Positions 809 through 15,758 of a stretch of 64,000 nucleotides of DNA are shown here, piece after piece. The translations under genes and the position numbers were made by a program. A model generated the notes under the pieces. It worked only from the letters and a program-made list of their open reading frames with translations, searched no databases and was not told the DNA's origin. Positions within the stretch are counted from its first letter, which is position 1. Each line of letters starts with the position of its first letter. Source of the stretch: Tribonema minus (Eukaryota > Sar > Xanthophyceae > Tribonematales > Tribonemataceae); assembly GCA_017506865.1 (NCBI GenBank), contig JAFCMP010000098.1, positions 124,001 through 188,000 on the forward strand. Direction: 5' to 3'.

Positions 809-3800
809 GCACCAAAGTGCGCTTCAAGCCCGACGCCGAGATCTTCAAGACCACCACGGTGTTCGAATTTGACAGGTCAGCGTGAGGGCAGCCGCCAGAA
901 GTGGTGGCTCAAGATGCAGGCAGAGCGCGTTGTGGTACTACTGACAGCACACACTGCGAACCAATTTGGCATTGCTTGACGTTTTCTGCGCGTTGCATGT
1001 GTTGTGCTATGTTCCGGTGCGAACTGTGAGGCATGGCAAGTTTTAATAGTCGGAGGTCACTTTGACATCTGTGCATGTTTGCCGCACGGCACCGCAGCCA
1101 GGTGGCTCCATCTGCAGACTGCTTGACGCCACAACTATGTGACATAAGACGCTGGCAACGCCAAATGCATTGCGACACGCCGCCACCTAATTTGATTCGT
1201 GTCCTGTCCATTGTCCTCGCTGCTTCTCGCTCAGGGCGTGAACAAGCCCAAATGGTCAGCGTCAAACTCGCTGCTGAGATTCATACCCTTGCGTCTCATA
1301 CCCTCGCGTCTCACTGCTCGTGGCGATCACCCGGGATGATTTTGTCAAGCAGCAATCAAAAATCATAACCGCATTTTCCCCGCACTGTACCTGTGTGTTG
1401 GCGCAGGTTGTCATCGCGAATGGACGAGCTGGCGTTCTTGAATGCCGGAGTCAGGCTCATCATGACCGACATGAGGGAGGGCCTCGATGCGGATGGCAAG
1501 CCCATCAAGCAGCAGGAGTACTTCCATCAGGTAGTACACATGCAGTACAGTGCCTGTACTCTTTGTATCTCGTGGTAATCATGTACTGCATGTGTACTCT
1601 GTAGAACATGCTTGTGCTTCCTGTCTGAAAAACTGTGCTTCGGCAACCCTGCTGCTTCGATCTGCTTGATTTTGGCCAGGTGAGGAGGGAAGGCCTGCAT
1701 ATTGAACCGTGTGGGGTTTACCTGCAAGTGCGCACAGCAGCCACTACTAACTGGTTTGAAGTCCTAGATGCACGGACACGTACTTCAACTTCAACTCCAG
1801 CCTACGCTCCAAGGCTGGTGTCTGTTCGTAGTTGAATAGGCCTGTTGTCTTTCTGTCGCCCGCAAACGCCGTTCTGAATCGTCTGCTGCGCTTTTTCTTG
1901 TGCTGCAGGGCGGCATGCGCGAGTACGTGGAGCTCATGTGCACGGAGAAGACGTGCCTGCACCCAGAGGCAAGTTCAACTACTTGAAGTGTACTATTACA
2001 TCCATATAGAGGAGTATTTTGAATGGAAACAAATACAAATTCATGTCTAGAAATTCTGCAGGAAAGGGAAGTTTGCACTACAATCTCAAGAGTGTTATGG
2101 GGTGTAAGCGCAATTGTATGGTGTCGCGCCTCTGCCGTGGTCGTATGCACTCATGTGCGCACGAGGTACGATGTCCAAATGTAGAAGTACGCAAAGTTGG
2201 CAAGCTTGGAGGCAATTGCAACAAAGGGCGCAGCATCTCTCTTCCGCCATGTTCACATGTACGCAGCATATGTGCTCGTGTCGTAGTGCCCCTAGAATAA
2301 TGAAGAATTGGCAATCTGCGATTGTTGACAACAAGCTGGTGTTTGAGGGTTTACATATGCCACGATGGATTTTTCATTACCAGAACCCAGAACCACACAA
2401 ACTAGTGCTGACTGGGCAGCCGCTTCGGAAGCACCGATGAAATGGAGTATTCACTATGCAGCGGCAGCAGCGCTGCAAGCTTACCGTGTGATGCTAACGC
2501 ACACTTAATTGAGTGTGCGACGCCTCCCCCCCCCCCCTCCCTGATACATCTGCTGTCGCTATCGCATGATGCGTGTGGCAGTTGCCCCCCCCCCTGATAG
2601 ATGCGATGTCGCTAACGCACAGTGCATGCGACGGTCGCTCCCCCACTGCGCAGGTGCCCGTCATTGTGGCCACGGGCGAGAAGGACGGCGTGGCGGTTGA
2701 GGCATGCCTCAGCTGGTCCAGCGACATGTACAGCGACTGCCTTGTGAGGTGAGGACCCTGTAGCAGCGGTTAGGGTTAGGGTTAGGGTGCGTCCTGCGCG
2801 TGTTGCCGCCATCTTGTGTTGTAGCCGGTTCGACAGTTACGGAGTGCTGATGGAGGGACATGTACGGCGACTGCCTTGTAAGGTGAGAACCGTGTATGTA
2901 GCAGCGGTGCATCTTTGCTTGTATTGTTCGTCATCTGTGTTGTGTGTAGGCGATTCGACAGGTGCGGAGTGCTGATGGAGGGTCACAAGCCGTACTTGTA
3001 CCGTTAGCCCTACCCCCAGCTTGTTTTGTCCCCTGCGCACATGACCTCACGGCCTCGTACCCTGTTGAGCGCTGTAGTCATAAGCCCTAGTTGAACCGCT
3101 AACCCTACCCCCCTAAGCTTGTTTTGTCCCCTGCGCACACGACCTCGCGGCTTCGTGACCTGTTGAGCGCCGTAGTCGCAAGCCCTAGTTTTACCGCTAA
3201 CCGTGCCCCAAGCTTGTTTCGTCCCCTGCGCACATGACCTCACCGCCTCGTGCCCTGTTGAGCGGTGCTGCAGCTTTGCCAACGGCAAGCCCTATTTGTT
3301 ATGCCGTAGTCACAAGCCCTAATTGTACTGCCAACCCACCCGTGAGCTTGTTTCGTCCCTGGCTCACATGACCTCTTGGGCCCTGTTGAGCGCCGCTGCA
3401 GCTTTGCCAACGGCATCCGCACCGTTGTAGTCACAAGCCCTACTTGTTCTGCCGTAGTCACAAGCCCTAGTTTTATACCGCTAACCCTACCCACGCTTTT
3501 TATTGGTCCCATGCACAAGTGACCTCACGCCCCCCACCCTTCTGAGCGCTGCTGCAGCTTTGCCAACGGTATCCGCACCGCCATATCCACAAGCCCTACT
3601 TGTTCTGCTGTAGTCACAAGCCCTAGTTGTACCGCTAACCCTACCCTAAACTTCTCCTGTACTTTTTATTAATTCTCGCTCAGGGCGCGAAAAAGCCCAG
3701 ATGATTGGCATCTAGCTGTAAGGAATCTACATGTCGTATGACAGTCTGAAAGTGTCGCAACGACAACCACTCAAACGCCGCCGCCGCCAAATGGCATCTC

Positions 3801-15758: not shown

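Follow-up and report, generated by a model that had tools for sequence, protein, structure and literature searches.

Copies of exon-intron junctions within the introns of Tribonema minus, a probable by-product of pervasive tandem duplication

The introns of the yellow-green alga Tribonema minus (Xanthophyceae, Stramenopiles; assembly of 158.2 Mb in 554 contigs) carry direct copies of the exon-intron junctions that bound them. Across three gene sets, namely gyrB, the Cpn60/TCP-1 (CCT) genes and the kinesins, 28 of the 94 curated junctions that bound 47 complete introns are copied into the intron next to them (gyrB 10/30, CCT 10/44, kinesin 8/20); 23 of the 47 introns are affected, with a maximum of seven copies at a single junction. 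The 47-intron set contains no intron with gaps or with an exon suspected to be missing, and the CCT set leaves out gene-end junctions and ambiguous sites. These copies are a real feature of the genome in the three gene sets, and the exon edges are best explained as fossils of neutral intron lengthening: tandem duplication is pervasive and probably neutral, lengthening introns wherever it falls, with the junction copies as its by-products.

The window, i.e. the whole stretch of 64,000 nucleotides that was analysed, contains the larger part of gyrB, which was rebuilt on the + strand with 16 exons, 15 introns and 30 junctions; 13 of the exons lie inside the window and three upstream of it (negative coordinates):

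809..15758, + strand: span of gyrB in the window, from the open reading frame across junctions, the protein P0001 at 99% and NCBIfam gyrB
-3116..-2709, -1442..-1233 and -471..-306, + strand: gyrB exons upstream of the window
809-875, 1407-1530, 1909-1968, 2654-2748 and 9257-9431, + strand: gyrB exons 1-5 of the window
9923-10021, 10451-10531, 11283-11362 and 11854-12004, + strand: gyrB exons 6-9 of the window
13013-13170, 13844-13904, 14435-14644 and 15663-15758, + strand: gyrB exons 10-13 of the window

The identity of the gene comes from a match of the partial protein to NCBIfam gyrB, with a score under the curated cut-off. At the transcript level the model is supported by one protein isoform, P0001 (EukProt, assembled-transcript protein, 558 aa), which is 99% identical to the rebuilt gyrB; it begins within the second exon, tracks the chain through to its last member and uses the outermost splice sites at 14 introns. 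Two of the 15 gyrB introns have GC donors (GCAAGT; 1968 and 10021), as does a 5'-3' exonuclease gene of the window (57961), and such donors are present among the inner copies too. Intron 4 houses a reverse-transcriptase element (3774-9131, - strand), with RVT_1 (PF00078) on the frame at 5835-9131 and a second long open frame at 3774-5831 that has no Pfam match. Short telomere-type runs (TTAGGG/CCCTAA) are seen at 2768-2788, 9720-9735 and 11228-11249, all in gyrB introns, and at 59901-59940.

Self-comparison of gyrB (offsets 12-1500, score at least 36, low-complexity pairs kept in, arrays grouped by hand) recovers ten arrays outside the reverse-transcriptase element, nine of which take in a genuine junction. 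The remaining one (2982-3653) is a series of copies of the exon 5 acceptor lying ~5.7 kb away from exon 5, the intervening sequence holding the reverse-transcriptase element. A preliminary description of this DNA had listed six junction duplications in gyrB, and all six are present; the other four of the ten lie upstream of the window, at the acceptor and donor of the exons -1442..-1233 and -471..-306. That catalogue, sound in its six junction arrays, omitted five further arrays that TRF places entirely within gyrB introns (1281, 2532, 12172, 12345, 14224), a figure that leaves aside telomere-type and very short-period runs. The junction arrays of the window are:

1..50, + strand: array end, donor copies of the upstream exon ending at -306 (self-comparison)
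2712..2985, + strand: exon 4 donor (after 2748) and its copy (after 2882), 134 bp apart
2982..3653, + strand: exon 5 acceptor-copy array, with copy exon starts at 3274, 3402 and 3558 (TRF, self-comparison)
10010..10225, + strand: exon 6 GC donor (after 10021) and four copies, period 45 (TRF, self-comparison)
12871..13022, + strand: exon 10 acceptor and two upstream copies (TRF, self-comparison)
13060..13414, + strand: final 111 nt of exon 10, donor and ~72 nt of intron, doubled once
14595..14989, + strand: exon 12 donor region in three copies, the real donor after 14644 and copies after 14775 and 14910
57822..58002, - strand: exon end of the 5'-3' exonuclease gene with its GC donor, and one copy (offset 134)

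The exon 10 duplication has an offset of 167 and 87% identity between its copies. The exon 6 donor copies lie after 10066, 10111, 10148 and 10191, and both of the in-frame ones hold stops; the exon 4 donor copy, if used, would bring a frame shift and a stop. Individual copies have lost the splice dinucleotide: near window position 14 the donor copy of the exon ending at -306 reads AT with its GT gone, and of the exon 10 acceptor copies one retains AG while the other reads AT. The exonuclease gene, for which the same kind of duplication had been reported, indeed has its donor at 57961 (ACCGAAACG followed by GCAAGT, - strand) and a copy at 57827; PF02739 matches two pieces of this gene with good E-values, yet short of the Pfam cut-off.

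Elsewhere in the window, two neighbouring stretches (17570-19519 and 22796-23179) contain similar coding sequence from a gene resembling glycosyl hydrolase family 26, apparently through a local duplication; PF02156 matches the second of them, and a lysine- and glycine-rich repeat stretch precedes the first. Perfect 32-bp tandem copies occupy 31555-31810, with a reverse complement at 31746-31810 in a large inverted arrangement. The segment 33001-34500 is a member of a repeat family with 29 other places at which >700 bases match at ~74-82% identity, and a class 3 lipase exon (PF01764) lies at 50149-50571 on the - strand.

The preliminary description had suggested a genome-wide occurrence, and the pattern does extend to genes chosen blind: the exons of Cpn60/TCP-1 (PF00118) and kinesin (PF00225) genes were located by genome search before any check for duplication, and 18 of their 64 junctions have copies in the adjacent intron. 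The profile matches themselves hint at such copies in the form of partial second matches that share an exon start or end and lie on its intron side (contigs C51, C5 and C135 for PF00118; C511 and C246 for PF00225, the latter two as search rows only). At the thresholds used for listing, no array is found at the kinesin L039 or in the CCT stretch C235 871-878 kb. Array density in the three gene sets is 0.72, 0.69 and 0.96 per kb, and arrays occupy 20-22% of intron bases in each; the array counts drop low-complexity pairs (3-mer entropy cut-offs 3.7-4.0), a filter from which the self-comparison and the count of direct and inverted pairs are exempt. Outside predicted genes the density is 0.12 per kb, ~six times sparser, in a contrast that is confounded because all three non-genic pieces tested are multi-copy, whereas a gyrB intron occurs just once in the genome. 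The sparse non-genic arrays may be due to younger repeat DNA. The underlying genic/non-genic split, like the rough placement control given below, comes from a cautious gene finder trained on gyrB alone and used for these two purposes only. A gene on contig C20 (L010-L011, segment 38000-46000), with putative MYND/SET-like sequence, has eight tandem arrays within 7 kb, five of them running across a predicted junction and three overlapping a predicted exon.

That the copies are an artefact of assembly, e.g. allelic copies placed side by side, is barely conceivable: the copies in most junction arrays diverge by ~5-35%, a junction can have up to seven of them, and the same pattern is seen in unrelated genes on several contigs.

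The arrays had also been read as ongoing intron gain, in which stretches of exon with an AGGT are duplicated in tandem. Rogers (1989) proposed, according to PMC4974935, that a duplicated exon piece containing AGGT turns into an intron; the predicted signature is an intron whose 3' end copies the upstream exon end and whose 5' start copies the downstream exon start. AG/GT does stand at the junction inside many of the duplicated units. However, none of the 47 introns of gyrB, CCT and kinesin genes has this signature above the 99% null at either end. Instead, the copies keep to their own side in 23 of 25 cases, those of an upstream exon within the donor half of the intron and those of a downstream exon within the acceptor half; of the two that do not, one is the exon 5 acceptor of gyrB, displaced by the reverse-transcriptase element. 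Most units, moreover, carry intron sequence that already existed. We give intron gain by this route almost no credence: the duplications lengthen introns and do not create them. An introner-like check of matches between introns, made without the low-complexity filter, returned 8 direct and 70 inverted ones.

A simple course of events would account for the observed anatomy. Direct tandem duplications, mostly of 45-350 bp, would keep arising in the introns of Tribonema minus, reach fixation neutrally and decay with time. A unit lying across a junction would be harmless, in that splicing would stay at the outermost site, leaving the exon unchanged and the intron longer, and the inner copy, comprising a bit of exon and a splice site, would thereafter drift as intron sequence. 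As the real exon is conserved, divergence on the exon side would accrue in one copy only, and junction duplications would remain recognisable for longer. We infer the neutrality of the duplications and their molecular cause. Within introns, 62 pairs are direct and 2 inverted, with offsets mostly of 45-350 bp, and the direct orientation fits tandem duplication over templated insertion. Among 13 perfect tandem duplications with a period of at least 15, 12 have 0-4 extra matching bases and one has 13, in a sample too small for mechanism and with four of its members from one place (window 31559-31778); the low microhomology at these few young duplications would perhaps point to fill-in of staggered breaks.

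Identity across the junction is asymmetric. In 22 of 33 junction windows from gyrB and CCT, identity is at least 80% over 40 exon bases, and the median intron-side identity in the 33 is ~71% of aligned columns. In 27 of the windows the exon side matches as well as or better than the intron side, and in six it matches less well; intron-side similarity exceeds that of shuffled sequence (z>2) in 26 windows and does not clearly do so (z<=2) in seven. Judged from these alignments, the asymmetry would fit one copy being held by selection, and old duplications show best across junctions because the exon copy is conserved. The six windows more alike on the intron side and the seven with z<=2 are not predicted by plain junction-spanning duplication unless introns decay fast.

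Are junctions hit beyond chance? Compared with the introns of other genes at a 99% threshold, the junction windows that pass number 10 of 30 in gyrB, nine of which touch the junction, and 23 of 59 in CCT, all touching; this null demonstrates only that the copies are local. Among evenly spaced 80-nt intronic windows, ~25% of 2498 have a copy in their own intron and the proportion is flat with distance from the junction (the 2498 include flanks with a verified exon on one side only, in which unrecognised exons are possible); exon-interior windows have a copy in 49 of 180 cases. Since ~25% of intronic windows are copied and 20-22% of intron bases lie in arrays, junctions are one of many places where duplication falls. 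The tests of junction and intronic windows, splice sites, geometry, identity and strict reach cover gyrB and CCT, and the kinesins are included in the exon-masked test, the densities, the pair orientation, and the intron-gain and junction counts.

Geometry contributes to the apparent preference: most units measure 45-350 bp and introns are ~230-2500 bp long, so that a good part of the units would be bound to cross a junction if placed at random. Under a geometry model 8 of 9 gyrB arrays touch a junction against 2.8-3.8 expected, and 9 of 15 CCT arrays against 6.8, a figure that rises to 9.0 under a doubled visibility of junction arrays. Visibility can be set aside by exon-masked detection, in which arrays are found from intron sequence alone and then checked for crossing into the exon; in this test, as in those of geometry, identity and strict reach, the reverse-transcriptase element is masked in the exon 5 intron, and the exon 5 acceptor array is thus scored as not touching. 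At a score of at least 44, 7 of 8 gyrB arrays cross (2.3 expected, P=0.001), the gene having been picked for looking striking; 7 of 11 kinesin arrays cross (2.6 expected, P=0.004) and 4 of 10 in CCT (3.1 expected, no excess). The two blind sets together give 11 of 21 against 5.7+-2.0 (P=0.010), and at other thresholds 11 of 24 (score 36, P=0.017) and 7 of 14 (score 60, P=0.099). By geometry and exon masking alike, the tie of every gyrB array to a junction is weakened as an overwhelming signal. In the rough control with predicted junctions, 21 of 49 arrays span a junction against 8.1+-2.4 for random placement, and 13 of 41 against 6.95+-2.3 without gyrB. Intron-only similarity in gyrB and CCT shows no excess reaching within 12 nt of the junction (6/18 versus 7.1), and stands at 10/18 versus 8.1 within 30 nt.

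A roughly two-fold excess at junctions likely remains after detection bias is removed. The preliminary interpretation is partly supported, by the genome-wide occurrence and by this moderate excess; in expecting that random slippage would seldom hit junctions so consistently, it underrated both geometry and the visibility lent to old copies by a conserved exon. The excess may reflect shorter introns at the time of duplication. The chief alternative is that junctions are true hotspots, targeted for instance via transcription-linked breaks, RNA-DNA hybrids or the GC step at the exon edge. It draws on the exon-masked excess in the blind sets and in gyrB and on both versions of the predicted-junction control, and we regard it as a possible but rather doubtful explanation: CCT alone shows no excess by either masking or geometry, the blind P value depends on the threshold, copy density stays level whatever the distance to the junction, intron-only similarity near the junction is not in excess, and the null takes present intron lengths, whereas shorter ancestral introns would raise the expectation. 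In a stronger form, which we hold to be slightly less plausible still, a splicing- or transcription-coupled process would duplicate preferentially at junctions and be a main route of intron lengthening, the two-fold excess being its trace. Neutral duplication, which we favour, is itself strained by the excess that survives bias removal, strongest in the kinesins and gyrB, and the six-fold sparser non-genic arrays would be unexpected under uniform mutation, although that contrast is confounded.

Most copied splice sites look intact. The statement that copies keep usable GT/GC or AG applies to 26 of 29 donor copies and 22 of 25 acceptor copies in gyrB and CCT, the remainder having lost the dinucleotide. 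This raises the further idea, also put forward earlier, that redundant splice sites are retained by selection, as a reserve or as decoys in regulation. In its favour, besides these counts, is the observation that at a flank identity of at least 90% the dinucleotide is kept in 32 of 32 copies against 86% in the control, a result that also strains the neutral reading. Overall, however, retention is close to the neutral rate, at 42 of 46 against 37.6 expected from exon-interior pseudo-junctions (P=0.054), in a comparison where, by our reasoning, copies within an array are non-independent and the control forfeits additional matches at synonymous positions. Use of the inner copies would be destructive: all 20 tested in gyrB would break the protein, 18 by frameshift and two in frame with stops (at the exon 10 acceptor the test covered the first copy only), and across all genes length preserves the frame in 13 of 50 copies, under one third. 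Outer sites are also those reflected in CCT, where the NCBI Tribonema minus CCT-theta protein matches the outer-site exons on contig C135 over the stretch compared. Selection for redundancy is unlikely, as inner gyrB copies would destroy the protein and few copies keep frame; as an explanation of the pattern we rate it very low, though selection may have a slight effect on the copies.

Intron growth is commonly attributed to transposons. Here, about one-fifth of the intron bases in three conserved gene sets are recognisable tandem arrays, and the conserved exon edges serve as reference points from which it should be possible to measure, in the Tribonema minus genome, how copies are made, how they decay and how spare splice sites survive. 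There is also a practical side: gene finders and searches made exon by exon can be led astray by junction copies, and partial exon copies did surface as separate profile matches.

Our literature searches, within their limits, found no account of a junction-copy pattern in Tribonema. Several known phenomena nevertheless bear comparison. Ordinary intronic minisatellites and tandem duplications are likewise direct head-to-tail copies that decay; the Tribonema arrays differ in being dense and often reaching into the exon edge. The tandem-duplication system discussed in PMC4974935 shares short direct tandem duplication within a gene, which may include intron-exon structure; in Tribonema, by contrast, no intron is seen to be newly formed, and the copy of a junction that already exists comes to lie in that junction's own intron, which lengthens while the protein stays as it was. 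The novel intron positions of Drosophila that are ascribed to sliding or tandem duplication (PMC2891723) resemble the present case in a regional tandem duplication close to splice sites, one of the copies turning intronic; there, however, it is coding sequence with a proto-splice site that is duplicated and intron positions shift, whereas the Tribonema copy lies inside an existing intron. Finally, the direct repeats near splice sites described in PMC11782384 also occur at exon-intron borders, but as pairs of 4-30 bp, detected by a comparison of the two borders, that are read there as insertion footprints; the Tribonema units are mostly of 45-350 bp and are found at one border, sometimes in several copies.
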